Source: Haliclona indistincta (lineage: Eukaryota > Porifera > Demospongiae > Haplosclerida > Chalinidae). From it: 64,000 nucleotides of DNA. Under the pieces are notes generated by a model. The model worked only from the letters and a program-made list of their open reading frames with translations. It was not told the origin of the DNA and made no database searches. The position numbers and the translations under genes were made by a program. The DNA lies in assembly GCA_964017065.1 (NCBI GenBank), contig OZ024789.1:5894191-5958190 (forward strand). Direction: 5' to 3'. This document shows positions 7,574 to 62,790 of this stretch, in pieces; the stretch's first letter is position 1, and each line of letters begins with the position of its first letter.

Positions 7574-10500
7574 TATGCTGTACATACACCGCCAGCTAAG
7601 TGCAGTTATATTAATAATTAGTTATAATTAGTCAACCCATGGTGGAAGCTGATCTGCATGGTCTTCAAACAAGCAGTGCACACTCAAGAACATAGGATGT
7701 AGTCAAGTGTGTGTTACCATGAGATAAGTGGAACCTTTATGGCTGCCTGACAGTCTCAATAATAGAAATAAAACTGTAATCGTAGAATGACAACGAACAT
7801 TTAGTTTTATTGTCCTCTACTGTACATACAAATAGCAGCATATTGTGTACAGTGTAATCACATACACTGTTGCTAACACATCATGTTATGTGCTGTGAGC
7901 ATGTCTGTTATAAAATGATAGCCCAGGATGAGTCTGCTCTTCTTCTTACCAGCACTGGACCAGGATCAACAAACCTATCAACCAATCGGTGGAATGGCCT
8001 AAGAGGAGGTGTCATCATGCTACCACATGTGTGAGTGGTCCACTACTAGTGATTGTGGGAGGGGATAGTTTGCGGCGTATTAGCAGTGACTGTTGGATTG
8101 GTGACCTCACTACAAACCAGTGGAAGAAGGTATATAGTGTTTGTATCTTAGACACTTTCAAGATTGGTTTGATATTGTATACATTCTTCAGCTATCCCTC
8201 CCTGACTCTGTGACTAAACGAAGCTATCATTCACTTTCTGCTCTACAACTATCACCACACAGTGTGTTATTGGTAATATTTGGTGGACAGAGATCGCATT
8301 ATTCTAATAGTGTATCCCACACTGCCCTCATTGAATTGAGTGAGTACTATATCAATGTATAGTCCATGCAGTACAGCAGCTATAGTGACAGACACTGGGC
8401 AGTGGTACAGGTGTACTGCTGACATAACAGCTGTTTTCTCCCATGCAGTCCTGCAGAAAGATGACGGGCAGTGGGTGGTGGGTAGGATATTAGAGGGAGC
8501 AGCCTTGGAAGACATGAGAGTGTACCAGCAGATGTACCGGGAGATGATACAATACAATGGTCAGTTCAAATTATTTATTGACACGTGTTATGTAAAGCAA
8601 TTTTTATGCTTTTTCAGATGCCAAGGCGTCACTGGGAGTAACAGTCATCATGAATATCACCAACATTGGTACCCAGGGCTATCCCGGCACAGGAAAAACA
8701 TCAATTCTTCACCTCGCCATGGGGAAAGAGCCAGCCCCTCAAAGGAACAGTACCGGCTGTATTGATCCACCCTCTCGCTACATGCTGATCAATAGTGAAG
8801 CTGATTCCTGCAGTGCAGCACAAGTGGAGTGGGAGAATGTCACTACAGACAAGATGTTTGAAATGGTTTGTGGAGCAGTAAAGAAGACCATTGAGGAAAG
8901 TCCATTGGACAAGGCTCTGGTCCATTCAGACAAGCCTGCAGTAGCAGCGCTACCAGTAGCAATGGACACTAGCTCACTTGCTGCAAACGACACTGCTGCA
9001 GAGTATGACCCAACTCCTGTTGGCAATGAACTGGTCCCTCCTATACAACTACCACCAGCAGCAGTAGCAGGCAGTGCTAATCAGATACCAGCAGCAGCTG
9101 AGCCTTCTCTTGATCCTTATTCTCCAGTGGCTAACGTTGGCTTTACTTGGTTTCCTGATCTGCTCAAAGAACTGTACAGCAGCAGAAGTTCTGGTGTAAT
9201 CTTCAACTCCCACTGGATGATGGTGACTGATTGTGGTGGCCAACCACCATTTCTGGATGCAGCCGCTCTTTTCCTTCGAAACAGCTGTCTTCAAATCTTT
9301 CCTCTCAAACTCAACGAGCCCTTGAGCAAAATAGCAGAGTTTTCTTATTTCTTTAGTGGCAAGTCTGCCAACTGTGAGCAATTTGATGTATTGTTGAGAA
9401 ATCAACAGATAATGGAGACTCTAGCCAAGTCTACAGCTTCTATTCAGCCACCATTCACACCGTCAGCAACTGAGTGTCCAAAGGGAGCTAAATTCACAAT
9501 CGTGGGCACATTTGAAGACGAGGCACACCATTGCAGTGAAACAGTAGCAGAGAAAGAGACGATTCTCAAACAAGTCCTCGAACCGTACAAAGCATTCCGA
9601 GTGCAGCTGGGTAGCAAGGTGATCCTGCCTATCAATGCCGTCGCCATGGACACCGAGACCAAGAAGGAGCGGACAGAGTCAGCAAAGAAACTTCGACGAC
9701 TATTGAAAAAGGCAAATGTGACAATGAAAGTAGAGGTAAAGCTGCGCTGGTTTGGGTTTCTCCTGAGCATGCTGACTATAGCTGAGAAGGATGGTAAAGC
9801 CATACTCCCACTTAGTGAGTGCTATAGACTCGGAGACTCTCTTGAGATGGACAAATCAGAGACCATGAAAGCAATCCAGTTTTTCCACGATATCAGCCTC
9901 ATCATGCATTTTGATACTCCGAAGCTCAGAGACTCTGTCATCATCGACACCAAACCAGTGCTCAACAAACTCTCTCGACTAATTACTCTCTCGTTTCTGG
10001 ATGAAGATTTCCTTGCTGAGCACTACGAGGACATTGTTCTTCCTGACGGAGCCAAGGAACTACTCCAGCACCACGGGGCGCTTCACCCGTTCCACACTAG
10101 AGTCATGTGTTGAGTTCTCTTTGTCCATTCCATTGCAATTCTTTGTAGACATTTTAGAGCACGTAAAGATAGTGGCTGCGATTGACCAAACATCAGAGTA
10201 TTTTATGCCTTGCGCTCTACCCTATGCTACTGAAATGCCTGACTCCTCCCACCCATGGGTGATTAGACTGAGAGTAAGACGAGGGGTCGACAAAGAGTAT
10301 GTTCCTATCCCAGTGGGTTATCTACCAGCCATTCTAGTCTTCCTTCTCACTAGGTTCTCGGATTGCTTTTCTTTAAATCGACACCAGAGGCAATATCGAA
10401 ATAAGATCGAGTTGGATTATGGTCCTGGAGGAGTGGTCTGTTTAGTGGAGCGCCATCTTCAACTGGAGGTGCACTATTCTTGCTGTGACCGACTTCAGCA

Positions 10501-11075
10501 AGAGTGCATGAATATTCGAAATCACGTTTTGGAGTCGATTCGTTTGACAGAAGAAAAGCTCCACATCAGAGAAGGTGCCATCACCAAGGTGGACTCTTTC
10601 CTATGCTCCTGTGGTGAGGGCAGCAGGGCCCAGCACATCTGTGCCTACAACCCTGAGACACAGATTGTGGAATGTGAGAAGACAAGAGAAGTGTTTGTAT
10701 TGGAAGCTCATCATCAGCTGTGGCTAGGTGTGTTGTGATGTAGTCTCTGATGATACATGTGATAATTGTATTGATGTAGGAGCAGCAATGGAGAGCACTG
10801 CACACTCTATTCACTTCAGTGACGACACCAGTGACAGTCATGAGCTACTACCACTAGCAGCAGTAGCAGAAGGTGAGCACTGTATACTGGTGTGGCTAGG
10901 TCAACCTCAGCTGGTATTATGTGGTATAATGATAATACAGAGAGTGTGTGATCATGATCAGCTTGTGATGATGGATAGTGACTAGTAAACAGTGTTTACA
11001 CTAGTAGTCATGTATCATTAGCTACTGTATTACCATATATGGTGGTAAACATGTACTATGATGTGTTTGTATGTA

Positions 11076-15869: not shown

Positions 15870-18800
15870 ATGGCAGATCCTCAGCGTGAGTCACAACTTA
15901 GCCGTGTTTAATTTGTCTAGATACCAACTGTTAGCTAGTTTCTTACTCCTCATGCACAGTGAACGACAGGTACGAGCCTGATGCTCGTGCTGGACACCAA
16001 ACCATTCGTGTTGGTAGTAACGTGTACATGTGGGCTGGAGATGTGGACGGTATGCCAAAGGTACACGACAGTCAAGAAAAGAGACAGTTTATATCCTGTG
16101 TGGAGGTATTCCACTCTGAGAGAGGAGACTGGACACGTCAGCCAACAAGTGGAGCTCCTCCACTGGGAGTGTATGGATATGGCTGTACTGCAGTGGGTGA
16201 TGCACTCCACTTCTTTGGTGGATGGTGTACTCATGATCACTGCTATCATAACAGCATTCACTCATTGAGCACATCGTCCCTTCACTGGGTGGAGTTATCA
16301 CCCACCACATCAGAGGGTGGGGCACCGATGAGAAAGAGTGACTGTGGTACAGTAGCATTTAAGGATGGAGAGGAGGACATCTTGTACATAGTAGCAGGGT
16401 TTGGTCCTACTCCATCATATCATCAGCCTGGAGCACTGTATAAAGCTTTATCTAGTGATCGTGTCTTCTGCAATGAGCAGCACATGTTCTCACTGAGTAC
16501 AAGTGAGTGATACTGTACATACATGTACTATAAGTGTTGCAACAGTTTACTAATGTATGTAGAGATAGTGCTTGTGTACTAGCTCAGTTTGTCTATCATT
16601 ATTATCACTATGATAGTAAAAGCATGAGTAATACAAATGTATATTGTACATGTACATTGTACCATTGAGTGGTATTATACCAGTAGTAGTGAAAGATGAT
16701 GTCATCACCTCCTGCAGGAGAGTGGAGCTCACCAAACATTACTGGACAGCCTCCTCCTCCATTGTTCCATTTCACACTTACTCCAGTGAGTGAGAGAAAA
16801 GCTGCACTGTTTGGTGGTTTGAGTGCATCAGGAGCCAGTCATGACCTGTTGATAGTTGAGCTGAGTAGAGATACTGTGGTGAGTGTTATGAGGATTGTGT
16901 GATAGTGTGGGTTATACATTGATCAATGGTTAGACCAACACAAAACACTATTCTTCTGTATACAGTAGAGGACAATACAAGATTAACATGCATATCGTTG
17001 TCGTTCTACAACAGTCATGCGTATTTCTAATAGAGTGAACTGTGAATGCTTCGTAATTTTTAACATCGTTATAATGCTAGTCATATGATTGAGCAAGTAC
17101 GCTCCCTGGTACGCCTCGTGTCTGTGTTAGACAATCGTAACACCAAGTGTACGTTTAATGACTGACTCTGGTTTACTGACTCTGTTGAGCACTAGACAAG
17201 CGTCGTCTATCGCTAAACTAAACTGTTCACCTGAACTATGGTCGCGCCTTTCCATAAAGAGAGGAAATTATATACACCTATATCGACTGGTGCATGGACC
17301 TTTCTATGTAGAATGACCGACCTAATGTAATATGACCGATCACATTCGCTTTACAAGCAGTTTTCTCGGTCATCTGTTACCGGCCTCATTTGATTTGTGA
17401 CCGACCTCATAAATTATTTGTGCAGTTGCATAAGAGCGACTGAATTTTGACACAAACAACACGCCATAGAAATAAAACTGTATAAATATGCAATCGTTTT
17501 ACAATCATTGAACTACAACGAATTAACATTTAGTTTTTAATGTCTTCTATGGTACATACAAATAGCAGCATATTGTGTACAGTGTAATCACATACACTAT
17601 TGCTAACACATCATGTTATGTGCTGTGAGCATGTCTGTTATAAAGCGATAGCCCAGGATGAGTCTGCTCTTCCTCTTACCAGCACTGGACCATGATCAAC
17701 AAACCTATCGACCGATCAGTGGAATGGCCTAAGGGGAGATGGAGTCATGCTACCACATGTGTGAGTGGTCCACTACTAGTGATAGTGGGTGGGGTCAGTG
17801 GGGGTAGTACTATTAGTGACTGTTGGATTGGTGACCTCACTACAAACCAGTGGAAGAAGGTATAGTGTTTGTATCTTAGACACTTTCAAGATTGGTTTGA
17901 TATTGTATACATTCTTGCAGCTATCCCTCCCTGACTCTGTGACTAAACGATGCTACCACTCTCTTTCTGCTCTACAACTATCACCACACAGTGTGTTACT
18001 GGTAATATTTGGTGGACGGAAATCACTAATTGATTCTGATAATCTATCCCACACTGCCCTCATTGAATTGAGTGAGTACTATCAATGTATTGTCCATGCA
18101 GTATAGCAGCTATAGTGAGAGACACTGGGCAGTGGTACAGGTGTACTGCTGACATAACAGCTGTTTTCTCCCATGCAGTCCTGCAGGAAGATGGCAGGCA
18201 GTGGGTGGTGGGTAGGATATTAGAGGGAGCAGCCTTGGAAGACAAGAGAGTGTACCAGCAGATGTACCGGGAGATGATACAATACAATGGTCAGTTCAAA
18301 TTTTTTATCTACACAAGTTGTGTAAAGCGATTTTTATGCTTTTTCAGATGCCAAGGCGTCACTGGGAGTAACAGTCATCATGAATATCACCAACATTGGT
18401 ACCCAGGGCTATCCCGGCACAGGAAAAACATCAATTCTCGACCTTGCCATGGGGAAAGAGCCAGCCCCTCAAAGGAACAGTACCGGCTGTATTGATCCAC
18501 CCTCTCGCTACATGCTGATCAATAGTGAAGCTGATTCCAGTGCAGCACAAGTGGAGTGGGAGAACGTCACTATAGACAAGATGTTTGAAATGGTTTGTGG
18601 AGCAGTAAAGAAGACCATTGAGGAAAGTCCATTGGACAAGGCTCTTGTCCATTCAGACAAGCCTGCAGTAGCAGCACTACCAGTAGCAATAGACACTAGC
18701 TCACTTGCTGCAGATTATGACCCAACTCCTGTTGGCAATGAACTGGACCCTCTTACACCAGCTGCAGCAGTAGCAGGCGGTGCTAATCAGATACCAGCAG

Positions 18801-21800
18801 CAGCTGAGCCTTCTCTTCATCCTTTTTCTCCAGTGGCTAACGTTGGCTTTACTTGGTTTCCTGATCTGCTCAAGGAACTGTACAGCAGCAGAAGTTCTGG
18901 TGTAATCTTCAACTCCCACTGGATGATGGTGACTGATTGTGGTGGCCAACCACCATTTCTGGATGTAGCCGCTCTTTTCCTTCGAAACAGCTGTCTTCAA
19001 ATCTTTCCTCTCAAACTCAACGAGTCCTTGAGCAAAATAGCAGAGTTTTCTTATTTCTTTAGTGGCAAGTCTGCCAAGTGTGATCAATTTGATGTAGTGT
19101 TGAGCAATCAACAGATAATGGAGACTCTAGCCAAGTCTACAGCTTCTATTCAGCCGCCATACACACCGTCAGCAACTGAGTGTCCAAAGGGAGCTAAATT
19201 CACAATCGTGGGCACATTTGAAGACGAGGCACACCATTGCAGTGAAACAGTAGCAGAGAAAGAGACGATTCTCAAACAAGTCCTCGAACCGTACAAAGCA
19301 TTCCGAGTGCAGCTGGGTAGCAAGGTGATCCTGCCTATCAATGCCGTCGCCATGGACACCGAGACCAAGAAGGAGCGGACAGAGTCAGCAAAGAAACTTC
19401 GACGACTATTGAAAAAGGCAAATGTGACAATGAAAGTAGAGGTAAAGCTGCGCTGGTTTGGGTTTCTCCTGAGCATGCTGACTATAGCTGAGAAGGATGG
19501 TAAAGCCATACTCACACTTAGTGAGTGCTATAGACTCGGAGACTCTCTTGAGATGGACAAATCAGAGACCATGAAAGCAATCCAGTTTTTCCACGATATC
19601 AGCCTCATCATGCATTTTGATACTCCGAAGCTCAGAGACTCTGTTGTCATCGACACCAAACCAGTGCTCAACAAGTTCTCTCGACTAATCACTCTCTCGT
19701 TTCTGGATGAAGATTTCCTTGCCGAGCACTACGAGGACATTGTCCTTCCTGACGGAGTCAAGGAACTACTCCAGCACCACGGGCGCTTCACCCGGTCCAC
19801 ACTAGAGTCATGTGTTGAATTCTCTGAGTCCATTCCGTTGCAATTCTTTGTGGACATTCTAGAGCACGTAAAGATTGTGGCTGCGATTGACCAAACATCA
19901 GAGTATTTTATGCCTTGCGCTCTACCCTATGCTACTGAAATGCCTGACTCCTCCCACCCATGGGTGATTAGACTGAGAGTAAAACGAGAAGTTAAAGAAG
20001 ATTATGTTCCTATCCCAGTGGGTTATCTACCAGCCATTCTAGTCTTCCTTCTCACTAGGTTCTCTGGTCGCTTCTTCTTATTTGAAAGCCAACGACAATA
20101 TCGAAATGTGATCAAGTTGTGTTACAAGCCTGGAGGTGTGGTCTGTTTAGTGGAGCGCCATCTTCAACTGGAGGTACACTTTTCTTGCTGTGACCGACTT
20201 CAGCAAGAGTGCACGAACATTCGAAATCACGTTTTGGAATCGATTCGTATGACAGAAGAAAAGCTCCACATCAGAGAAGGTGCCATCACCAAGGTGGACT
20301 CTTTCCTATGCTCCTGCGGTGAGGGCGGCAGGGCCCAGCACATCTGTGCCTACAACCCTGAGACACAGATTGTGGAATGTGAGAAGACAAGAGAAGTGTT
20401 TGTATTGGAAGCTCATCATCAGCTGTGGCTAGGTGTGTTGTGATGTAGTCTCTGATGATACATGTGATAATTGTATTGATGTAGGAGCAGCAATGGAGAG
20501 CACTGCACACTCTATTCACTGCAGTGACGACACCAGTGACAGTCATGAGCCACCACCACTAGCGGCAGCAGAAGGTGAGCACTGTATACTGGTGTGGCTA
20601 TAGGTGAACCTCAGCTGGTATTATGTGGTATCATGATAATACAGAGAGTGGGTGATCATGATCAGCTTGTGATGATGGATAGTGACTAGTAAACAGTGTT
20701 TACACTAGTAGTCATGTATCATTATGCCTCGGTGGGCGGAACCACGAAGCATACATGTACAGTAGTTCGTCGGTTTGTCATTCATTATGCCTCGGTGGGC
20801 GGAGCCACGAGGCATACTGTAATCGCGTTGTCTGTCGTTCTGTCGTTCAGTCTGTCTGTTACACCATTTTTGCGGCGCACGCTGAACGGTGAGCTCTGAA
20901 ACTTGCAATGCAGGTATAACTCGACATTATCTCGGTTGTGTATTAGCGAAAGTTCGATGCAAAGCTTTGTTCTAGAGTTATGGCGCGGTTTGTTCACCTA
21001 TAGATGGCTTTGCTGACGATCAGGACTTCTCAGAAAAAAAACTACTCACAGCAGACTGCCTAGTAGCTTGTAGGTTAAATTTATACTACATGATGGCAGC
21101 GCAGATCCGTAGAAACTGCGCGAGGAAGCTACTTGTAACCAGAACCCGGCAGGTTACTGCCATTCAATGCATAGGCACGCCCAGTTAATTAAAATAATAT
21201 TAATAATAATTCTCAGCACTGTTTGGCTTCTGATTGCATAACTACAAAGTTTGCTATATTGCTTCTGCTCGTGCTATATTCGAATGCTGGCAGCTGAATA
21301 TGAATATTACTCTGTTATAGCATTACATGCTCAAATTTTAACATCCACCGAGGCATAACCAGCGCCAACGGTGCATTTTTCATTCTGTCCGCAGGCAGAA
21401 CTCCGCGTCGGCTGAAAACTATTCGCTGATACTTGCAATACATGTTCAACTCGGTGTTGCCTCGGAATTGAATTGATAGACTTTTGGTTTCAAAGCTTCG
21501 TTACCTTGAATGGCATTGCTGGACTCGCTCAGCATTGTGGGACTTCGCTGAAGATAAAGCTGTCTACTATAGTCTTCTTCACAGCTTGTAAGACAATTCT
21601 TTACTCAAGGTAGTACAGTGAGTGCTGAGAAATCAATCGTGCTATCGCTACGCAGCGCCAGCTCCAGCAAGCTAGCAACCAGCGCTTACATGCTGTGTTG
21701 ATTATAGGCACGCCCAACTGAATTCCATGTGGTTAGCACTGCTAGGCTTCTGATTGCATAGTTGCAACCCACTAGCTTATTCTGCAAACAGTGCTGTATT

Positions 21801-29429: not shown

Positions 29430-32400
29430 ATGGCGACTCCTCAGCGTGAGTAGGCGTGTTTGTCTTGAGCCTGATCCGCGTAGTGAACACCAAACCATTC
29501 GTGTTGGTAGTAACGTGTACATGTGGCCTGGATGGGTGGACGGTATGCCAAAGGTACACGACAGTCAAGAAAAGAGACGGTTTCTATCCTGTGTGGAGGT
29601 GTTCCACTCTGGGAGAGGAGACTGGACACGTCAGCCAACAAGTGGAGCTCCTCCACTGGGAGTGTATAGATATGGCTGTACTGCAGTGGGTGATGCACTC
29701 CACTTCTTTGGTGGTTACTGTAACCATGATGACTGCTATCATAACAGTATTCACTCATTGAGCACATCATCCCTTCACTGGGTGGAGTTATCACCCACCA
29801 CATCGGAGGGTGGGGCACCGATGAGAAAGAGTGACTGTGGTACAGTAGCATTTAAGGATGGAGAGGAGAACATCTTGTACATAGTAGCAGGGTATGGTCC
29901 TACTCCATCATATTCATATCGTCAGCCTGGAGCACAGTATGAAGCATTTGCTAGTGATCATGTCTCCTGCAATGAGCAGCACATGTTCTCACTGAGTACA
30001 AGTGAGTGATACTGTACATACATGTACTATAAGTGTTCGAACAGTTTACTAATGTATGTAGAGATATAGTGATTGTGTACTAGCTCAGTTTGTCTATCAT
30101 TATTATCACTATGATAGTAAAAGCATGAGTAATACAAATGTATATTGTACATGTACGTTGTACCATTGAGTGGTATTATACCAGTAGTAGTGAAAGATGA
30201 TGTCATCACCTCCTGCAGGAGAGTGGAGCTCACCAAACATTACTGGACAGCCTCCTCCTCCATTGTCCGATTTCACACTTACTCCAGTGGGTGAGAGAAA
30301 AGCTGCACTGTTTGGTGGGAGTGGATTAGGAGCCTACAGTGATGACCTGTTGATAGTTGAGCTGAGTAGAGATACTGTGGTGAGTGTTATGAGGATTGTG
30401 TGATAGTGTGGGTTATACATTGATCAATGGTTAGACCAACACAAAACACTATTCTATATACTGTATACAGTAGAGGACAATAAAAATTAACGTATCGTTG
30501 TCGTTCTACAATAGTCATGCGTATTTCTAATAGTGTGAACTGTGAATTATTCGTAACGGTAGATGAAACCTGGTAATAATGCTAGTCATACGATTGAGCA
30601 AGTACGCTCCCTGGTACACTGTGTCTGTGTTAGATTATTGTGACACCAATTAGAGTACGTTTACTATGGAAGATACAGCTAAGTGTGCATGGGCTCCGTT
30701 GAGCACTAGACAAGTGCCGTCTATCGCTAAAACCGAATAATTCACAATGGATGATGTGTTGTAGATCAAAGCAGGAGCTAGTGCTGAGTACTGGCTTACC
30801 GAGTTCAAAATAGCCTGAATTCAAAAGTAAATAGAAAATGAGATGAATTATTCTTGTTTCTGGGACAGTAGCAACCTCCGTCCGGGACGCAGGACACAGA
30901 CAGAAAATCTGTGACTGTCCTAGATGTTTCCGGACAGTTGACACCTTTACAAGGTCGGGCGTAGGAGTGAGCTCAATATTTCGGAATAATTTTGGGAAAT
31001 TTAAGAAGAACTTTCAAAGCCTCACCCCAAAATAAATCATAATTCAAAATTTTATAGGAGATTTAGTGCCCAATGGCATTAAATCTTGCCTGTAACACTT
31101 GTGGGATTGGTCGCTAAGCAGCTGCACTGATATTTTAGGGAAAATTAGTGCTAGGTAGCACTAAATGTGTCCTACAATAATATGAAGGGGTATTACAGTG
31201 GTGGTCACTAAATTTTCCCTACACCACTTGGGGAAGAATTAATGCTCTTGCATTAAATCTTCCCTATAATACCTGGGGAAGATTCAGTGAACGGATATAG
31301 TGTATCATCCCACAATCGATAATTTTTGGCCCAATGCATGAGAGTAATAGGTGAGAAATTCCGGAAAGAATAATAGGCAGAGTTTGAAGAATAATGTGCT
31401 CAACCCTAGCTATAGTTGGGGGTTGGCACAAGAAAAGACTGGGCGTGTTGGACCATGCCTTTAGTTCTATTTAGTACACATTCACCAAAGTGCATTATGG
31501 CAACAAATCCTGACCGATCACGAGGTAAAGAGTCTGATTTACAGAATGCATTGATTGGAATATGCGAAAAAGTACTCGAGGTACTCTAGCTGTTCTTGAG
31601 CTATAGTATATTTTGGACGACCTCTGTGACCACTTGTCAATGGAAGAGCAAACCCACAACCAGCATCAGGAAGTTTGTTAAGATCCTCTAGCAAAGGTAA
31701 TCCCTTACTTATAGTCTAGTTCTTTGATTAGCTGGAGTACTTTTTGGAATAATTATTCCAATCAATGTATTCTGTAATTCAGACTCTCCACCTCACGATC
31801 TGTCAGGATTTGCTGCCATAATGCACTTTGATGCATGTGTACTAAATAGAACTAAAGACATGGTCCGACAAGCCCAGTCTTGTCTTGTGCTGACACCCAA
31901 CTGCCTAATAGACCTCAATTAGGATGCACGATCGACCTCGTGTAGTATGATCGATCTCATTTGGTTTGCAAACAGTCTCGGTCGTTCTGTTACCGGCCTC
32001 ATTTGATTTGCAACCGACCTCATAAATTATTTGTGCTGTCTCATAAGAGCAATCGAATTTTGACACTAACTACACACCATGGTATGAGAACTGTAAATAT
32101 GCAATCGATTTGCAATCATAGAACGACAACGAACATTTGTCTTCTACTGTACATACAAATAGCAGCATATTGTGTACAGTGTAATCACATACACTATTGC
32201 TAACACATCATGTTATGTGCTGTGAGCATGTCTGTTATAAAGTGATAGCCCAGGATGAGTCTGCTCTTCCTCTTACCAGCACTGGACCGGGATCAACAAA
32301 CCTATCAACCGATCAGTAGAATGGCCTGAGAGGAGAGATAGTCATGCTACCACATGTGTGAATGGTCCACTACTAGTGATAGTGGGAGGAGACAGTGGGT

Positions 32401-35400
32401 TCAGTACTATCAGTAACTGTTGGATTGGTGACCTCACTACAAACCAGTGGAAGAAGGTATAGTGTTTGTATCTTAGACACTTTCAAGATTGATTTGCAAT
32501 CTTCAGCTATCCCTCCCTGACTCTGTGACTGAACGATACTATCACTCACTTTCTGCTCTACAACTATCACCACACAGTGTGTTACTGGTAATATTTGGTG
32601 GACGGAGATCATTTGGTTCTGATAATCTATCCCACACTGCCCTCATTGAATTGAGTGAGTACTATCAATGTATTGTCCTTGCAGTACAGCAGCTATAGTG
32701 ACAGACACTGGGCAGTGGTACAGGTGTACTGCTGACATAACAGCTCCTTTCTCGCATGTAGTTCTGCAGGAAGATGGCGGGCAGTGGGTGGTGGGTAGGA
32801 TATTAGAGGGAGCAGCCTTGGAAGACAAGAGAGTGTACCTGCAGATGTACCGGGAGATGATACAATACAATGGTCAGTTCAAACAATTTATTTACACGTG
32901 TTATGTAAAGCAATTTTTATGCTTTTTCAGATGCCAAGGCGTCACTGGGAGTAACAGTCATCATGAATATCACCAACATTGGTACCCAGGGCTATCCCGG
33001 CACAGGAAAAACATCAATTCTCGACCTCGCCATGGGGAAAGAGCCAGCCCCTCAAAGGAACAGTACCGGCTGTATTGATCCACCCTCTCGCTACATGCTG
33101 ATCAATAGTGAAGCTGATTCCAGTGCAGCACAAGTGGAATGGGAGAACGTCACTACAGACAAGATGTTTGAAATAGTTTGTGGAGCAGTAAAGAAGACCA
33201 TTGAGGAAAGTCCATTGGACAAGTCTCCGGTCCATTCAGACAAGCCTGCAGTAGCAGCACTACCAGTAGCAATAGACACTAGCTCACTTGCTGCAAACGA
33301 CACTGCTGTAGAGTATGACCCAACTCCTGTTGGCAATGAACTGGTCCCTCCTACACCACCACCAGCAGCAGCAGTAGCAGGCAGTGCTAATCAGATACCA
33401 GCAGCAGCTGAGCCTTCTCTTGATCCTTATTCTCCAGTGGCTAACGTTGGCTTTACTTGGTTTCCTGATCTGCTCAAAGAACTGTACAACAGCAGAAGTT
33501 CTGGTGTAATCTTCAACTCCCACTGGATGATGGTGACTGATTGTGGTGGCCAACCACCATTTCTGGATGCAGCCGCTCTTTTCCTTCGTAACAGCTGTCT
33601 TCAAATCTTTCCTCTCAAACTCAACGAGTCCTTGAGCAAAATAGCAGAGTTTTCTTACTTCTTTAGTGGCAAGTCAGCCAACTGTGATCAATTTGATGTA
33701 GTGTTGAACAATCAACAAATAATGGAGACTCTAGCCAAGTCTACAGCTTCTATTCAGCCGCCATACACACCGTCAGCAACTGAGTGTCCAAAGGGAGCTA
33801 AATTCACAATCGTGGGCACATTTGAAGACGAGGCACACCATTGCAGTGAAACAGTAGCAGAGAAAGAGACGATTCTCAAACAAGTCCTCGAACCGTACAA
33901 AGCATTCCGAGTGCAGCTGGGTAGCAAGGTGATCCTGCCTATCAATGCCGTCGCCATGGACACCGAGACCAAGAAGGAGCGGACAGAGTCAGCAAAGAAA
34001 CTTCGACGACTATTGAAAAAGGCAAATGTGACAATGAAAGTAGAGGTAAAGCTGCGCTGGTTTGGGTTTCTCCTGAGCATGCTGACTATAGCTGAGAAGG
34101 ATGGTAAAGCCATACTCACACTTAGTGAGTGCTATAGACTCGGAGACTCTCTTGAGATGGACAAATCGGAGACCATGAAAGCAATCCAGTTTTTCCACGA
34201 TATCAGCCTCATCATGCATTTTGATACTCCGAAGCTCAGAGACTCTGTCATCATCGACACCAAACCAGTGCTCAACAAGCTCTCTCGACTAATCACTCTC
34301 TCGTTTCTGGATGAAGATTTCCTTGCCGAGCACTACGAGGACATTGTTCTTCCTGACGGAGCCAAGGAACTACTCCAGCACCACGGGCGCTTCACCCGGT
34401 CCACACTAGAATCATGTGTTGAGTTCTCTGTGTCCATTCCATCGCAATTTTTTGTCGACATTCTAGAGCACGCAAAGATAGTGGCTGCGATTTACAAAAC
34501 ATCAGAATACTTTATGCCTTGCGCTCTACCCTATGCTACTGAAATGCCTGACTCCTCCCATCCATGGGTGATTAGACTGAGAGTAAGACGAGGGGTCGAC
34601 AAAGAGTATGTTCCTATCCCAGTGGGTTATCTACCAGCCATTCTAGTCTTCCTTCTCACTATGTTCTCGGATCGCTTTTCTTTAAATCGACACCAGAGGC
34701 AATATCGAAATAAGATCGAGTTGGATTATGGTCCTGGAGGAGTGGTCTGTTTAGTGGAGCGCCATCTTCAACTGGAGGTACACTATTCTTGCTGTGACCG
34801 ACTTCAGCAAGAGTGCATGAACATTCGAAATCATGTTTTGGAGTCGATTCGTATGACAGAAGAAAAGCTCCACATCAGAGAAGGTGCCATCACCAAGGTG
34901 GACTCTTTCCTATGCTCCTGTGGTGAGGACAGCAGGGCCCAGCACATCTGTGCCTACATCCCTGAGACACAGATTGTGGAATGTGAGGAGACAAGAGAAG
35001 TGTTTGTATTGGAAGCTCATCATCAGCTGTGGCTAGGTGTGTTGTGATGTAGTCTCTGATGATACATGTGATAATTGTATTGATGTAGGAGCAGCAATGG
35101 AGAGCACTGCACACTCTATTCACTGCAGTGACGACACCAGTGACAGTCATGAGCTACCACCACTAGCAGCAGTAGCAGAAGGTGAGCACTGTATACTGGT
35201 GTGGCTATATAGGTCAACCTCAGCTAGTATTATGTGGTATCATGATAATACAGAGAGTGTGTGATCATGATCAGCTTGTGATGATGGATAGTGACTAGTA
35301 AACAGTGTTTACACTAGTAGTCATGTATTATTAGGTACTGTATTACCATATATGGTTGGTAAACATGTAATGTGTTTGTATGTACTACCACTATCTCTTA

Positions 35401-53648: not shown

Positions 53649-56600
53649 ATGGCGACTCCTCAGTGTGAGTAGGCGTGTTTTGACTAGATACCAATTGTTA
53701 GCTAATTTCTTACTCCTCACAGCGAACGACAGGTACGAGCCTGATGCTCGTGATGAACACCAAACCATTCGTGTTGGTAGTAACGTGTATATGTGGGCTG
53801 GAATGGTGGACGGTATGCCAGAGGTACACGACAGTCAAGAAAAGCGACGGTTTATATCCTGTGTGGAGGTGTTCCACTCTGAGAGAGGAGACTGGACACG
53901 TCAGCCAACAAGTGGAGCTCCTCCACTGGGAGTGCGTGGATATGGCTGTACTGCAGTGGGTGATGCACTCCACTTCTTTGGTGGATGGTGTAACCATGGT
54001 TACTGCTTTCATAACAGTATTCACTCATTGAGCACATCGTCCCTTCACTGGGTGGAGTTATCACCCACCACATCAGAGGGTGGGGCACCGATGAAAAGGA
54101 GTTCCTGTGGTACAGTAGCATTTAAGGATGGAGAGGAGGACATCTTGTACATAGTAGCAGGGTTTGGTCCTACTCCATCATATCATCAGCCTGGAGCACA
54201 GTATAAAGCATTATATAGTGATCATGGCCTCTGCAATGAGCAGCACATGTTCTCACTGAGTACAAGTGAGTGATACTGTACATACATGTACTATAAGTGT
54301 TGGAACAGTTTACTAATGTATGTAGAGATAGTGCGTACGTACTAACTCAGTTTGTCTATCATTATTATCACTATGATAGTAAAAGCATGAGTAATACAAA
54401 TGTATATTGTACATGTACGTTGTACCATTGAGTGGTATTATACCAGTAGTAGTGAGAGATGATGTCATCACCTCCTGCAGGAGAGTGGAGCTCACCAAAC
54501 ATTACTGGACAGCCTCCTCCTCCATTGTCTCATTTCACACTTACTCCAGTGGGTGAGAGAAAAGCTGCACTGTTTGGTGGTTTGAGTGGATTTGGAGCCT
54601 ACAGTGATGACCTGTTGATAGTTGAGCTGAGTAGAGATACTGTGGTGAGTGTTATGAGGATTGTGTGATAGTGTGGGTTATACATTGATCAATGGTTAGA
54701 CCAACACAAAACACTATTCTACTGTATACAGTAGAGGAAAATAAAAAGTTAACGTATTATTGTCGTTATACAATATTTCTGATAGTGTGAACTGTGAATT
54801 CTTCGTAACAGTATATGAAACCTGTTATTAACGCTAGTCATACGATTGAGCAAGTACGCTCCCTGGTACACCTCATGTCTGTGTTAGACGATTGTGACAA
54901 CAAGAGTACGTTTACAATGGAAGATACAGCTAATTGTGGGCTCCGTTGAGCACTAGACAAGCGTTGTCTATCGCTAAAACCGAATAGTTCACAATGGATA
55001 ATGTGTTGTAGATCAAAGCAGGAGCGCTGAGTACTGGCTTACTGAGTTCAAAATAGCCTGAATTCAAAAGTAAATAGAAAATCAGGTGAAGTATTCTTGT
55101 TTCTGGGACAGCAGCAACCTCCGTCCGGGACGCGGGACACAGCCAGAAAATGTGTGACTGTCCTGGATGTTTTGGGACGGTTGACACCTATGCAAGGTCG
55201 AGCGTAGGGGTGAGCTCAATATTCCAAAATCCTGACCCCAAAGTAAATCAAAATTCAAAATTTTTTGTGGTACAAGTATTCTGATAGACAGTACAGTGCA
55301 TTACACATAGAAACATCAATGCCCTTCCAGTACAATGGTCACCATGCAAGCTACAAATACAAGAACTGTGTTGCTGTATTGTGTCAGTTATGATCATAAA
55401 AGCTTTCTTTTTGAGAATAATAGCGATAATTTTGGGCCCAATGCATGGGTGGGAAGTTCTGGAAAGAATAATAGGCAGAGTATGAAGAATAATGTGCTCA
55501 ACCCTAGCTATAGTCGGGCGTTAGCACAAGAAACGACCGGGCGTGTTGGACCATGCCATTTAGTACACACCAAAGTGCATTATGGCAACAAATCCTGACC
55601 GATCGCGAGGTAAAGAGTCTGATTTACAGAATGCATTGATTGGAATATGCCAAAAAGCACTCGAGGTACTCTAGCTGTTCTTGAGCTATAATATTTTGGA
55701 CGACCTCTGTGACCACTTGTCAATGGAAGAGCAAACCCACAACCAGCATCAGGAAGTTTGTTAAGATCCTCTAGCAAAGGTAATCCATTACTAGTTGCTT
55801 CGAAAAGTAATTCAGAAGCATCATTTGAAAAGTACATGTAGACCAACATGATACGTACAAGGCAATCCAGTTTTTCTGGCTCCTTTCCTTCTTCATTTTG
55901 AGTAATTAGCTGGAGTATATACTTTTTGGAATAATTTTTCGAATCGATGCATTCTGTAATTCAGACTCTCCACCTCACGATCGGTCAGGATTTGCTGCCA
56001 TAATGCACTTTGCTGTGTACTAAATAGAACTAAAGGCATGGTCCAACAAGCCCAGTCTTTTCTTGTGCTGACACCCAACTGCCTAATAGACTTCAATTAG
56101 GATGCACGATCGACCTCGTGTAGTATGATCGATCTCATTTGGTTTGCAAACAGTCTCGGTCGTTCTGTTACCAGCCTCATTTGATTTGCAACCGACCTCA
56201 TAAATTATTTGTGCAATCTCATAAGAGCAACCGATTTTTGACCCTAACTACACGCCATGGTATGAGAACTGTAAATATGCAATCGATTTGCAATCATAGA
56301 AACGACAATGAACGTTTAGTTTTATTGTCCTCTACTGTACATACAAATAGCAGCATATTGTGTACAGTGTAATCACATACACTATTGCTAACACATCATG
56401 TTATGTGCTGTGAGCATGTCTGTTATAAAGTGATAGCCCAGGATGAGTCTGCATGCTCTTCCTCTTACCAGCACTGGACCAGGATCAACAAACCTATCAA
56501 CCGATCTGTGGAATGGCCTGAGAGGAGGTTTTATCATGCTACCACATGTGTGAGTGGTCCACTACTAGTGATAGTGGGAGGGTATGGTGATGAGGGTACT

Positions 56601-59600
56601 ATCAGTGAATGTTGGATTGGTGACCTCACTACAAACCAGTGGAAGAAGGTATAGTGTTTGTATCTTAGACACTTTCAAGATTGGTTTGATATTGTATACA
56701 TTCTTCAGCTATCCCTCCCTGACTCTGTGACTGAACGATACTATCACTCACTTTCTGCTCTACAACTATCACCACACAGTGTGTTACTGGTAATATTTGG
56801 TGGACGGAGACCACTTCTTTCTGATAGTCTATCCCACACTGCCCTCATTGAATTGAGTGAGTACTATCAATGTATTGTCCATGCAGTACAGCAGCTATAG
56901 TGACAGACACTGGGCAGTGGTACAGGTGTACTGCTGACATAACAGCTCCTTTCTCCCATGCAGTCCTGCAGGAAGATGGCGGGCAGTGGGTGGTGGGTAG
57001 GATATTAGAGGGAGCAGCCTTGGAAGACAAGAGAGTGTACCAGCAGATGTACCGGGAGATGATACAATACAATGGTCAGTTCAATTTACACGTGTTATGT
57101 AAATCAATTTTTCTGCTTTTCCAGATGCCAAGGCGTCACTGGGAGTAACAGTCATCATGAATATCACCAACATTGGTACCCAGGGCTATCCCGGCACAGG
57201 AAAAACATCAATTCTCGACCTCGCCATGGGGAAAGAGCCAGCCCCTCAAAGGAACAGTACCGGCTGTATTGATCCACCCTCTCGCTACATGCTGATCAAT
57301 AGTGAAGCTGATTCCAGTGCAACACAAGTGGAGTGGGAGAACGTCACTACAGACAAGATGTTTGAAATGGTTTGTGGAGCAGTAAAGAAGACCATTGAGG
57401 AAAGTCCATTGGACATGGCTCTGGTCCATTCAGACAAGCCTGCAGTAGCAGCACTACCAGTAGCAATAGACACTAGCTCACTTGCTGCAAACGACACTGC
57501 TGCAGAGTATGACCCAACTCCTGCTGGCAATGAACTGGTCCCTCCTACACCACCACCAGCAGCAGCAGTAGCAGGCAGTGCTAATCAGATACCAGCAGCA
57601 GCTGAGCCTTCTCTTGATCCTTATTCTCCAGTGGCTAACGTTGGCTTTACTTGGTTTCCTGATCTGCTCAAAGAACTGTACAGCAGCAGAAGTTCTGGTG
57701 TAATCTTCAACTCCCACTGGATGATGGTGACTGATTGTGGTGGCCAACCACCATTTCTGGATGCAGCCGCTCTTTTTCTTCGAAACAGCTGTCTTCAAAT
57801 CTTTCCTCTCAAACTCAACGAGTCCTTGAGCAAGATAGCAGTGTTTTCTTATTTCTTTAGTGGCAAGTCTGCCAACTGTGAGCAATTTGATGTAGTGTTG
57901 AGCAATCAACAGATAATGGAGACTCTAGCCAAGTCTACAGCTTCTATTCAGCCGCCATTCACACCGTCAGCAACTGAGTGTCCAAAGGGAGCTAAATTCA
58001 CAATCGTGGGCACATTTGAAGACGAGGCACACCATTGCAGTGAAACAGTAGCAGAGAAAGAGACAATTCTCAAACAAGTCCTCGAACCGTACAAAGCATT
58101 CCGAGTGCAGCTGGGTAGCAAGGTGATCATGCCTATCAATGCTGTCGCCATGGACACCGAGACCAAAAAGGAGCGAACAGAGTCATCAAAGAAACTTCGA
58201 CGACTATTTAAAAAGGCAAATGTGACAATGAAAGTAGAGGTAAAGCTACGCTGGTTTGGGTTTCTCCTGAGCATGCTGACTATAGCTGAGAAGGATGGTA
58301 AAGCCATACTCACACTTAGTGAGTGCTATAGACTCGGAGACTCTCTTGAGATGGACGAATCAGAGACCATGAAAGCAATCCAGTTTTTCCACGACATCAG
58401 CCTCATCATGCATTTTGATACTCCGAAGCTCAGAGACTCTGTCATCATCGACACCAAACCAGTGCTCAACAAGCTCACTCGACTAACCACTCTCTCATTT
58501 CTGGATGAAGATTTCCTTGCCGAGCACTACGAGGACATTGTCCTTCCTGACAGAGCCAAGGAACTACTCCAGCACCACGGGCGCTTCACCCGGTCCACAC
58601 TAGAGTCATGTGTTGAGTTCTCCGAGTCCATTCCATTGCAATTCTTTGTGGACATTCTAGAGCACGTAAAGATAGTGGCTGCAATTGACCAAACATCAGA
58701 ATACTTTATGCCCTGCGCTCTACCCTATACTACTGAAATGCCTGACTCCTCCCACCCATGGGTGATTAGACTGAGAGTAAGACGAGGGGTCGACAAAGAG
58801 TATGTTCCTATTCCAGTGGGTTATCTACCAGCCATTCTAGTCTTCCTTCTTACTATGTTCCCGGATCACTTTTCTTTAAATCGACACCAGAGGCAATATC
58901 GAAATAAGATCGAGTTGGATTATGGTCCTGGAGGAGTGGTCTGTTTAGTGGAGCGCCATCTTCAACTGGAAGTACACTATTCTTGCAGCAGCATCAAGAA
59001 GCTTCGTAAGGAGTGCAAAATCATTCGAAATAATATTTTTAAGTCGATACGTTTGACAGAAGAAAAGCTCCACATCAGAGAAGGTGCCATCACCAAGGTG
59101 GACTCTTTCCTATGCTCCTGTGGTGAGGGCAGCAGGGCCCAGCACATCTGTGCCTACAACCCTGAGACACAGATTGTGGAATGTGAGGAGACAAGAGAAG
59201 TGTTTGTATTGGAAGCTCATCATCAGCTGTGGCTAGGTGTGTTGTGATGTAGTACGTCTCTGATGATACATGTGATAATTGTATTGATGTAGGAGCAGCA
59301 ATGGAGAGCACTGCACACTCTATTCACTGCAGTGACGACACCAGTGACAGTCATGAGCTACCACCACTAGCAGCAGTAGCAGAAGGTGAGCACTGTATAC
59401 TGGTGTGGCTAGGTCAACCTCAGCTGGTATTATGTGGTATCATGATAATACAGAGAGTGTGTGATCATGATCAGCTTGTGATGATGGATAGTGACTAGTA
59501 AACAGTGTTTACACTAGTAGTCATGTGGTACTGTATTACCATATATGGTTGGTAAACATGTAATGTGTTTGTATGTACTACCACTATCTCTTACTATACT

Positions 59601-60271
59601 AACAGTGGTTTATCACAACAGCTCTCTCATGTCATAGTTTGTATTCTAGTGTTGCTCCTGGTCATGTGAGTCATATCTTTAGTGTTCTATCAGCTAATCA
59701 TGAGATGTGTTGAATCAGTTGTGTTAGTGACTGTGTTGTTACTGTCAGTACTGATGGTATTATACCAGTAGCTACTACAGAATATGATGGACACACACCA
59801 TCTCATGATCATGGTAACACTATACCTGCTACTGCTGTCAATATGGCTCATGGTGTCTCATGTGTGTAGGTAGTGACACTCCCACTCTACTCAAGCTGAA
59901 GACAATGAAAGGAGCTGATGGTAAACCACTGAAGATAGTTCAAAAGATTGCTGCTCATGACTACACAACATTCGGTATGTTTCTCCTACAAGATGAGAAT
60001 GGAGAAGAGGTTGATCTCATTGAGAAGGACCATATCAACAAAGGTGCTGTGAGTGTTACGAAGGAAATTCTCAAGAAATGGCTGACAAGTGATGCACCTA
60101 CTCGTACATATCAACACTTGATAGAGTGTCTCAGACAGTCTGAACTGGGTGCACTTGCTGAGCTCATTGAAAACACAACACAGAGGTATGATACCATCAC
60201 TCACTCACTCACTACCCACTCGCTATAATCACTCACTCACTCTCTCACTTGTTCATCTCTTTCTCAGATAA
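53649..60271 (+). CDS. KRD4: intact six-Kelch / Roc GTPase / COR / death-domain protein, 1,227 aa
   Basis: Exons: 53649-53664, 53723-54265, 54481-54644, 56472-56648, 56709-56856, 56964-57074, 57125-59236, 59293-59385, 59870-60185, 60268-60271. All have GT-AG borders and matching phases, total 1,228 codons. Six Kelch blades have their G-G (or A-G) pairs at about residues 31, 92, 151, 219, 277 and 331. The GTPase region has P-loop GYPGTGKT (407-414), DCGGQP (590) and VGTFED (681-686), separated by an Ala/Pro-rich linker. The COR-like block (FFHDISLIMHF, RDSVIIDTKPVLNKL) is at about 807-837. The death domain covers about 1122-1226 (ILKKWLTSD, RTYQHLIECL, LGALAELIE). Roc-COR plus death domain recalls DAPK1; kelch-bearing Roco proteins are known in amoebae. 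The expected role is a GTP-switched signalling protein with a propeller sensor and death-fold output. No signal peptide or membrane segment is seen, so it is probably cytosolic. The stop is created across the last splice (AG|ATAA). Confidence 0.88.
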
Positions 60272-60925
60272 AGCTGTTCAGTGTCAGATCACTTCATTGT
60301 ATACCAGCGGGACTGTTAGCAGTACTGATGTGTGAATCAAGACACATGTACAATATAACTGTTTTCCATGCAACTATTGCAGTCACCACTTTTTGTTGTA
60401 TTATTCAATTTCATCAATTTGATTGTTATTGTGAAAGTTAGTTGGTGTAAGTTCATACTCCTCACAGCAATCTAGTTCAACAACAATTCCAGCGCATTTT
60501 TCGTAAAGGCAATGTTAGCCTAGTCTCACCCGGACACGCCTATCCAGCATGGTAGCACTAGCTAATCATTCTCCATCTCTCTACTACTGTACTCTATACT
60601 ATCTACCACAAGGACAGATACATATCCTTCTTCACTATATGATCTCTCAAGGCGGGTTTAGCGGCACAGCAGATAGCTCATGCATATGAGAACTTTATAA
60701 AGTTTTGGTGTCAGGAGGGATTGAAGCAGCATGTAATTCAGGATCAGTCTTGTTTGAACTACGTACATCGTCTGTAGCTATATAGCTTGTTTAAATTTTG
60801 TACCCTCTGTATATGTGTTGCCTTCTCTGCTGAAACACTACCTCAGACAATCAACTAGACACGAGATTCATCACAGTATCATCAGGTACGCTTGCCTCCC
60901 TGAAGTTTTCTGTCTGCGAGTCTTA
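60272..60925 (+). other. 3' flank and spacer after KRD4
   Basis: This is the conserved unit spacer with the CATCAG|GTACGC donor-like site at about 60885. It is followed, as in KRD3, by CAPZA 3' flanking sequence and not by a UTP20 piece. Confidence 0.45.
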
Positions 60926-62790
60926 TTTTTGACTTTTTGTTGTTGTTGTTAGCATACATCTTATTTTTGTTGTTGTTAGCATGAATCTTATTTTTGTTGT
61001 TGTTAGCATACATCTTATTTTTGTTGTTGTTAACATGCATCTTATTTTTGTTGTTAGCAAGCATCTTATTTTTGTTGTTGTTAGCAAGCATCTTATTTTT
61101 GTTGTTGTTAGCATGCATCTTATTTTTGTTGTTGTTAGCATGCACCTTATTTTTGTTGGTGTTAGCATGCATCTCATTTTTGTTGTTGTTGTTAGCATGC
61201 ATCTCATTTTTGTTGTTCTTGTTAGCATGCATCTCATTTTTGTTGTTCTTGTTAGCATGCATCTTATTTTTGTTCAGTGTTGCTGTTAGCATACATCTTA
61301 TTTTTGTTGTTGTTAGCATGCACCTTATTTTTGTTGTTGTTAGCATGCATCTTATTTTTGTTCAGTGTTGCTGTTAGCATGCATCTTATTTTTGTTGTTA
61401 GCAAGCATCTTATTTTTGTTGTTGTTAGCAAGCATCTTATTTTTGTTGTTGTTAACATGCATCTTATTTTTGTTGTTGTTAGCATGCATCTTATTTTTGT
61501 TGGTGTTAGCATGCATCTCATTTTTGTTGTTGTTGTTAACATGCATCTTATTTTTGTTGTTGTTAGCATGCATCTTATTTTTGTTCAGTGTTGCTGTTAG
61601 CATGCATCTTATTTTTGTTGTTAGCAAGCATCTTATTTTTGTTGTTGTTAGCAAGCATCTTATTTTTGTTGTTGTTAACATGCATCTTATTTTTGTGGTT
61701 GTTAGCATGCATCTTATTTTTGTTGGTGTTAGCATGCATCTCATTTTTGTTGTTGTTGTTAACATGCATCTTATTTTTGTTGTTGTTAGCATGCATCTTA
61801 TTTTTGTTCAGTGTTGCTGTTAGCATACATCTTATTTTTGTTGTTGTTAGCATGCACCTTATTTTTGTTGTTGTTAGCATGCATCTTATTTTTGTTCAGT
61901 GTTGCTGTTAGCATGCATCTTATTTTTGTTGTTAGCAAGCATCTTATTTTTGTTGTTGTTAGCAAGCATCTTATTTTTGTTGTTGTTAACATGCATCTTA
62001 TTTTTGTTGTTGTTAGCATGCATCTTATTTTTGTTGGTGTTAGCATGCATCTCATTTTTGTTGTTGTTGTTAACATGCATCTTATTTTTGTTGTTGTTAG
62101 CATGCATCTTATTTTTGTTCAGTGTTGCTGTTAGCATGCATCTTATTTTTGTTGTTAGCAAGCATCTTATTTTTGTTGTTGTTAGCAAGCATCTTATTTT
62201 TGTTGTTGTTAACATGCATCTTATTTTTGTTGTTGTTAGCATGCATCTTATTTTTGTTCAGTGTTGCTGTTAGCATGCATCTTATTTTTGTTGTTAGCAA
62301 GCATCTTATTTTTGTTGTTGTTAGCAAGCATCTTATTTTTGTTGTTGTTAACATGCATCTTATTTTTGTTGTTGTTAGCATGCATCTTATTTTTGTTCAC
62401 TGTTGTTGTTAGCATACATCTTATTTTTGTTGTTGTTAACATGCATCTTATTTTTGTTGTTAGCATGCATCTTATTTTTGTTGTTGTTAGCATGCATCTT
62501 ATTTTTGTTCAGTGTTGTTGTTAGCATGCATCTTATTTTTGTTGTTGTTAGCATACATCTTATTTTTGTTGTTGTTAACATGCATCTTATTTTTGTTGTT
62601 GTTAGCATGCATCTTATTTTTGTTCAGTGTTGTTGTTAGCATGCATCTTATTTTTGTTGTTGTTAGCATGCACCTTATTTTTGTTGTTGTTAGCATGCAT
62701 CTTATTTTTGTTGTTGTTGTTAGCATGCATCTTATTTTTGTTGTTGTTGTTAGCATGCATCTTAATTTTGTTGTTGCATCTTATTTTCTC
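60926..62790. repeat. 1.86-kb minisatellite with higher-order structure
   Basis: Some 65 copies of a 27-28-base unit, GCATGCATCTTATTTTTGTT plus GTTGTTA, run without spacers. A variant unit containing TTCAGTGTTGCTG (or close forms) occurs at about 61273, 61361, 61584, 61807, 61895, 62118, 62257, 62396, 62508 and 62623. The spacing 88-223-223-88-223 shows amplification of multi-unit blocks. The matching place after KRD3 (about 37040) has only a single TTTTGTTGTTAG. Frames rich in Asn/Lys/Met or Leu/Phe are repeat artefacts. Confidence 0.95.

Follow-up and report, generated by a model that had tools for sequence, protein, structure and literature searches.

The window analysed here is a 64 000-nucleotide stretch of the genome of the sponge Haliclona indistincta (GenBank assembly GCA_964017065.1; contig OZ024789.1, here called C7; C7:5894191-5958190). 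It carries members of a large gene family with a six-bladed Kelch domain encoded by four exons, here upstream of a Roc-COR GTPase exon and a Death domain frame. A preliminary description, made from the letters of the window, had pointed out that otherwise nearly identical copies differ in the loop following the diglycine (GG) of each Kelch blade, and had proposed diversifying selection on binding specificity. In this study, we compared the window copies with related copies from elsewhere in the genome (144 Mb, 46 contigs) and found an excess of non-synonymous change at 33 Kelch codons, 32 of which lie in the loops of one face of the propeller.

Gene layout and size of the family

Window copies and their exons were located by tblastn together with exon alignment, and all lie on the plus strand. 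Copy 4 is the most complete. A putative short first coding exon (MATPQ.., 53649..53664), predicted from the sequence, ends in CAG before a GTGAGT donor, approximately 75 bases 5' of Kelch exon 1; 19 of 23 copies have a similar ATG-plus-donor stretch 5' of exon 1, with the form ATGGC...CAG in 16. No signal peptide was found in the copy 4 protein as read from this predicted exon, and the product is therefore probably cytosolic. Kelch exon 1 (53724..54265) encodes blades 1–3 and is supported by Pfam (PF24681, E 2.3e-15), exon alignment and an AlphaFold2 model. Exons 2 (54480..54644; blade 4), 3 (56469..56648; blade 5, with an approximate 5' edge) and 4 (56709..56856; blade 6) were placed by exon alignment, and the interval to which the preliminary description referred spans Kelch exons 1–4 of this copy. 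A linker exon, the Roc-COR exon and the Death domain frame follow in this order. The Roc-COR exon (57125..59247), which is the conserved switch part, contains, by eye, a GYPGTGKTS P-loop and a DCGGQP motif, and matches COR-A (PF16095, E 7.2e-6) below the Pfam cut-off; no Roc match was returned by the Pfam scan of this exon. Precomputed PF16095 annotations are present on 115 of the 120 database homologues listed (of 204). The Death domain frame (59860..60228), 3' of the Roc-COR exon, matches PF00531 with E 4e-8.

Three further copies were identified by sequence match. Copies 2 (15962..20440) and 3 (29467..35044) each comprise Kelch exons 1–4 and a Roc-COR exon. The start of exon 1 in copy 3 (29431-29470) has no intron-1 acceptor of the copy 4 kind, so its first four aligned codons are unreliable and the gene may be altered or broken at its 5' end. 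Copy 1 (7950..10735) is represented in the window by exons 3 and 4 (blades 5–6) and Roc-COR, an exon-1 match lying 1.4–1.9 kb upstream of the window. Its Roc-COR exon (8617-10735) matches as two pieces in different frames with a break near 10076, and copy 1 may therefore be broken.

The family extends far beyond the window. At least 150 genomic places match Kelch exon 1 (150 scored of 191 candidates), and at least 150 match Kelch exon 3 (150 scored of 170 candidates). For comparison with the window copies, 20 additional loci were taken as the best exon-1 matches outside the window, from about 40 on C7 at 74–90% identity; loci L001-L010 were left out of the counts, and a duplicate view of one gene within another locus was removed. 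The 24 extracted genes include exon 1 in 23, exons 2, 3 and 4 in 22 each and all four exons in 21, and no stop codon was found in their Kelch exons. When 120 database exon-1 proteins were compared with 63 from this genome, seven were identical over at least 150 residues, two further ones were at least 95% alike and 110 were below 95%. In the two pairs at or above 95%, 3/7 and, by reading, 0/5 differences fall on the selected sites described below, numbers too small for an allele test.

Variation and selection in the Kelch loops

The B-C windows comprise the nine residues after GG in each of the six blades, as in the preliminary description, and the D-A windows the four residues before strand A of each blade; nine residues late in the blade 3 B-C loop were counted separately. 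Pairwise counts cover 345 of 379 codon columns. In the 77 columns of the B-C and D-A windows, the proportion of non-synonymous differences (pN) was 0.251 and that of synonymous differences (pS) 0.177, a ratio of 1.42 (bootstrap 1.12–1.84), compared with 0.042, 0.105 and 0.40 across 259 columns elsewhere. The late blade 3 part (nine columns), the length of which differs between copies, gave a pN of 0.367 and a pS of 0.245; the blade 1 B-C window by itself had a ratio of 0.69. None of 344 circular shifts of the column labels matched the non-synonymous excess and one of 344 matched the smaller synonymous excess, indicating a modest rise in synonymous change in the loops as well.

This synonymous component is what favours a local mutation process, namely targeted hypermutation or a diversity-generating mechanism, as the source of the loop variability. 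Apart from the raised loop pS, 0.231 of pairs have different third bases at selected codons, compared with 0.082 in the rest, and codon pairs encoding the same amino acid differ more often in the loops for sixfold codons (0.154 vs 0.087) and isoleucine (0.279 vs 0.029; 201 loop pairs), with 0.110 vs 0.086 for fourfold codons. Twofold pairs, however, differ equally in loops and rest (0.053 vs 0.057), and the first two bases of the selected codons vary far more than the third, with 0.511 and 0.525 of pairs differing (0.054 and 0.033 in the rest). In addition, the third base is constant at many sites, with T fixed at some and C, G or A at others, so that there is no single target base. A mutational origin is thus highly improbable. 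A diversity-generating retroelement, a candidate raised by the fixed third bases, was ruled out since these include all four bases.

Site-wise rates were estimated with a self-written FUBAR-like grid (MG94 x HKY on IQ-TREE exon trees, 22–23 paralogues per Kelch exon), which is not the published FUBAR program, and a codon was called selected at a posterior above 0.9 for beta > alpha (dN > dS). Of 346 codons, 33 were selected: 28/78 in the B-C and D-A windows, 4/9 in the late blade 3 part and 1/259 elsewhere. Fitted alpha was 1.27 in the loops and 0.97 in the rest, and beta 3.63 and 0.47, respectively. Allowing beta to exceed alpha improved twice the log-likelihood (2dlnL) by 148.4 over the mixture constrained to beta <= alpha; in 60 null simulations under the constrained fit, run without recombination, 2dlnL averaged 3.8 with a maximum of 11.2 and at most six sites were called.

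Comparison of paralogues may itself mislead, if gene conversion keeps the frame uniform and dN/dS is inflated by incorrect trees. By eye, the exon trees have a star-like shape and differ from one another, which suggests exchange between copies and lends this explanation some substance. Nevertheless, the pairwise counts, which use no tree, agree with the site model; a star tree yields 41 selected sites, 39 of them in the loop windows, and seven local trees yield 33, of which 32 are in the windows. Old loops spared by conversion should, moreover, have accumulated synonymous differences beyond the slight increase observed. We consider it very unlikely that the signal is an artefact of this kind.

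On copy 4, the selected codons are distributed over all six blades. Before blade 1 (53743..53757) they start at 53743, 53752 and 53755, the first being the one selected codon outside the loop windows, which adjoins this D-A window. The blade 1 B-C loop has a single one directly after AG (53803..53805), as does the D-A loop before blade 2 (53935..53937), and the blade 2 B-C loop (53986..54003) has three, at 53986, 53998 and 54001. Two lie before blade 3 (54100..54105) and four in the late, copy-variable part of its B-C loop (54214..54231; 54214, 54217, 54223 and 54229). The D-A loop before blade 4 (54531..54533) contributes one and the blade 4 B-C loop (54582..54602) seven. Blade 5 has two in the preceding D-A loop (56529..56534) and four in its B-C loop (56583..56597; 56583, 56589, 56592 and 56595), and blade 6 has one (56739..56741) and four (56805..56825; 56805, 56814, 56817 and 56823) in the corresponding loops. 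All 21 complete copies have distinct pockets at these positions: on average 24.6, and at least 16, of the 33 codons differ between two copies. Selected sites are rich in Asp (12.7 vs 3.6% in the rest), Arg (11.1 vs 3.8%), Tyr (8.6 vs 2.0%) and Ser (13.8 vs 11.0%), and Lys, Val, Thr and Pro are rarer there.

The variable sites are loops, some of variable length, as would also be the case if exposed loops drifted neutrally under relaxed constraint while the strands stayed conserved. Two results argue against this. The loops of the opposite face (A-B and C-D; 52 codons) are conserved like the strands, with a pN of 0.045, a pS of 0.085 and no selected site; by face, 32/87 ligand-face codons, 0/52 opposite-face loop codons and 1/207 others are selected. 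Furthermore, replacement is faster than the neutral rate: beta exceeds alpha at 33 codons, and loop pN in the same 15 copies used for Roc-COR (0.208, 0.243, 0.334 and 0.309 for exons 1–4) is above the intron distances of 0.095 (14 copies), 0.104 (22 copies), 0.124 (16 copies) and 0.043 (20 copies; an intron of about 41 bases), so that the loops change faster than introns. Neutral drift is accordingly the explanation to which we give least weight. Outside the Kelch exons, the linker exon (14 copies) has a pN of 0.043 and a pS of 0.050, and the Roc-COR exon (15 copies) a pN of 0.037 and a pS of 0.082, pN being slightly greater than pS in two of 12 segments. One proline- and alanine-rich Roc-COR stretch (columns 120-180; 57484-57664) has a pN of 0.049 and a pS of 0.041.

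The same sites recur in a more distant group of genes. Among 56 exon-1 matches on C7 beyond 8.8 Mb, 57–63% identical to copy 4, 32 were fetched and 31 retained after exclusion of an incomplete copy; no stop codon was found in exon 1 of any of the 31. In this second group 20/181 codons are selected, 19 of them among the 48 loop-window codons (2dlnL 143.3), and 13 of the 14 sites selected in exon 1 of the first group are selected here as well (Fisher p 5e-14; Spearman correlation of beta 0.66). Five copies on contig C3 gave a pN of 0.200 and a pS of 0.125 in loops and 0.067 and 0.149 in the rest; three copies on contig C8 are too alike to inform (loops 0.047 and 0.036; rest 0.021 and 0.099). In the 120 database exon-1 proteins listed (of 368), the 15 most variable columns by entropy all lie within the loop windows, as do 23 of the top 40, and mean entropy is 1.61 in the windows and 0.79 elsewhere.

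These results bear out most of the preliminary description. Its quoted loop strings occur in the translations of the window copies, except that 'ERDSH' actually reads ERRDSH. The clustering after GG is beyond chance and stronger than had been claimed, and the D-A clusters it reported before blades 5 and 6 are real and are joined by variable D-A positions before all the other blades, blade 3 having a further stretch of variable length towards the end of its B-C loop. It had also named three observations that would speak against diversifying selection, and none of them was made: synonymous changes are only mildly raised in the loops, dN/dS is above 1 at 33 codons and the outcome is similar on star and local trees, and no selected site lies in the opposite-face loops. 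Binding specificity, as suggested by the sequence pattern, would be the property under selection.

The propeller face and the downstream domains

The Kelch exons match PF24681 with 124.6 bits (cut-off 50) and Kelch_1, 2, 3, 4 and 6 above their cut-offs, and the six GG-like positions in the alignment correspond to six blades. By structure comparison the Kelch domain has the propeller fold. The AlphaFold2 model comprises blades 1–3 (exon 1) and was built from an alignment of 80 of the 120 listed database proteins; in it the selected sites fall in the D-A or B-C connections, with strand D of blade 2 unresolved. A 377-codon frame on contig C10, considered as an intronless copy for a full model, was rejected because it runs through introns and, by reading, has no blade 6.

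The preliminary description had assigned the variable loops to the ligand face of a Keap1-type propeller. The selected sites do lie on one face, consistent with the exon-1 model; the nearest solved relative of the whole domain by sequence is KLHDC2, and Keap1 is absent from the 13 sequence matches among solved structures, which include LZTR1 (E 1e-5). Five of seven published KLHDC2 pocket residues align with selected codons (p 1e-4), namely Lys147 (second codon before blade 3), Arg236 and Arg241 (first and last of the seven in the blade 4 B-C loop) and Ser269 and Trp270 (the two before blade 5). The anchor positions vary among copies, with R/L/Y/W/F/Q/G at Arg236, and at these aligned positions the R/F-S-R carboxylate anchor is not retained, as no copy has Ser at Ser269 and none has Arg at Arg241.

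Downstream of the Kelch exons, the 21 full copies fall into three types. Sixteen lie upstream of a Roc-COR exon of the window type (15 whole, one cut by the locus end), four upstream of a coiled-coil and kinase frame (L016, L021, L023 and L025; L023 by Pfam, PF00069, E 2e-34, and the other three by sequence match), and one upstream of a different Roc-like GTPase frame (L027:7409-9610; PF08477, E 1.6e-4, below cut-off). Using the best 79 of 100 kinase matches, 51 of 150 exon-1 places have a kinase match no more than 12 kb downstream (median 2.6 kb), in the same orientation and without an intervening exon 1; the figures are 0/56 for second-group places and 15/46 for other places on C7. Of two second-group loci read further, one, L052, has a ZU5 match downstream (21.5 bits vs cut-off 21), and no Pfam match was found in the stretch beyond it. 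This locus also has a long frame between exons that appears reverse transcriptase-like by eye. From order and strand, the Kelch and downstream domains are presumably joined on one transcript. A database protein 64% identical to the Roc-COR query (P0064) has both COR-A and NACHT (PF05729) matches, hinting at a possibly wider exchange of switch parts.

A candidate receptor repertoire

A fixed propeller frame, one diversified face, a unique pocket in each copy, recurrence of the sites in the second group and exchangeable downstream domains in the same order and strand together fit a germline sensor repertoire. We propose that these genes encode cytosolic Kelch receptors with a diversified one-face pocket and exchangeable signalling ends, most likely serving the recognition of non-self, and we assign this explanation a probability of about 0.7. 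The sensor would be the N-terminal six-bladed propeller, whose B-C and D-A loops would line one ligand-binding face. Its frame is kept by purifying selection, whereas diversifying selection repeatedly replaces about 33 pocket codons, and each of the many copies thereby has its own pocket. The window copies would couple this sensor to a Roc-COR GTPase switch with a Death domain, and in other copies a sensor of this kind stands before a kinase or a ZU5 part. On binding a ligand, the protein would throw the switch or activate the kinase and so set off signalling or cell death. Recognition of foreign molecules would be the likeliest reason for maintaining such a repertoire.

Several points weigh against this proposal. 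The immune role is suggested by analogy. The loci were chosen as best exon-1 matches, so the main sample consists of the copies closest to the window copy, and the D-A, late blade 3 and opposite-face windows were drawn after the alignment and its variable columns had been seen rather than blind. The raised synonymous change in the loops means that some of their divergence may be of greater age or reflect a locally higher rate, and the star-like, mutually different trees suggest exchange between copies. The half-propeller model (blades 1–3) has a mean predicted local distance difference test score (pLDDT) of 73.9. As for the two remaining pocket residues of KLHDC2, Tyr163 aligns with a site that is selected in the second group only and Trp191 lies two residues off a selected codon.

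The repertoire could also be genuine while its ligands are the animal's own variable molecules, as in self marking, allorecognition or an arms race with selfish genes, rather than microbes. Any fast-changing partner would yield the same pattern, and a seemingly cytosolic protein followed by a Death domain would suit such a role. At least 150 exon-1 places would probably be many for a self-marking system, and we regard self ligands as unlikely, though a serious alternative to non-self recognition.

Solved and described relatives share parts of this architecture. The C-degron receptors KLHDC2, KLHDC3 and KLHDC10 are Kelch substrate receptors of cullin ligases; here, in contrast, the anchor residues are not conserved and are among the hypervariable ones, copies are many and Roc-COR, kinase or ZU5 parts lie downstream. 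In contrast to the Keap1, KLHL and LZTR1 propellers, no BTB match was found in the exons scanned here. The succession of a P-loop stretch, COR (with COR-A below cut-off) and a Death domain frame resembles ROCO proteins of the LRRK and MFHAS1 types. ROCO sensors such as these contain leucine-rich or ankyrin repeats, whereas the sensor here would be a hypervariable Kelch propeller. Receptor repertoires in general vary leucine-rich, WD40, immunoglobulin or lectin parts. A large family, a variable sensor, a conserved switch and a Death-type end recall the NLR and related repertoires of plants, sponges and fungi. Expanded NLRs have been described in a sponge (PMC6208332), and large TRADD-N expansions in Amphimedon, with WD40 propellers that vary strongly and with Death-like domains (PMC8195603). 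The present family differs from NLRs in that the switch is of the Roc-COR or kinase type and the variability lies in Kelch pocket codons, and Pfam scans of the window copy, covering its Kelch, Roc-COR and Death exons, gave no match to NACHT or NB-ARC. No hypervariable Kelch pocket family with exchangeable signalling ends was found in the open-licence literature searched.

A more specific and tentative proposal, which we place somewhat below even odds, is that the family is an undescribed class of innate receptors with at least 150 germline loci. Its Kelch pocket would read peptide ends or short motifs, the carboxylate-anchor positions of KLHDC2 having become hypervariable, and its outputs (Roc-COR-Death, coiled coil with kinase, or ZU5) would be interchangeable. 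Such receptors, if real, would constitute a modular alternative to NLRs in which about 33 codons set the specificity. As the sites are sharply defined, the specificity of this candidate cytosolic repertoire becomes testable, and swaps of the approximately 33 codons or peptide screens on natural pockets would ask directly what is recognized.

Beyond the Death domain frame of copy 4, the window contains a tandem array of units of approximately 27 bases (60866-62776), and the GC content across the window ranges from 0.33 to 0.47.

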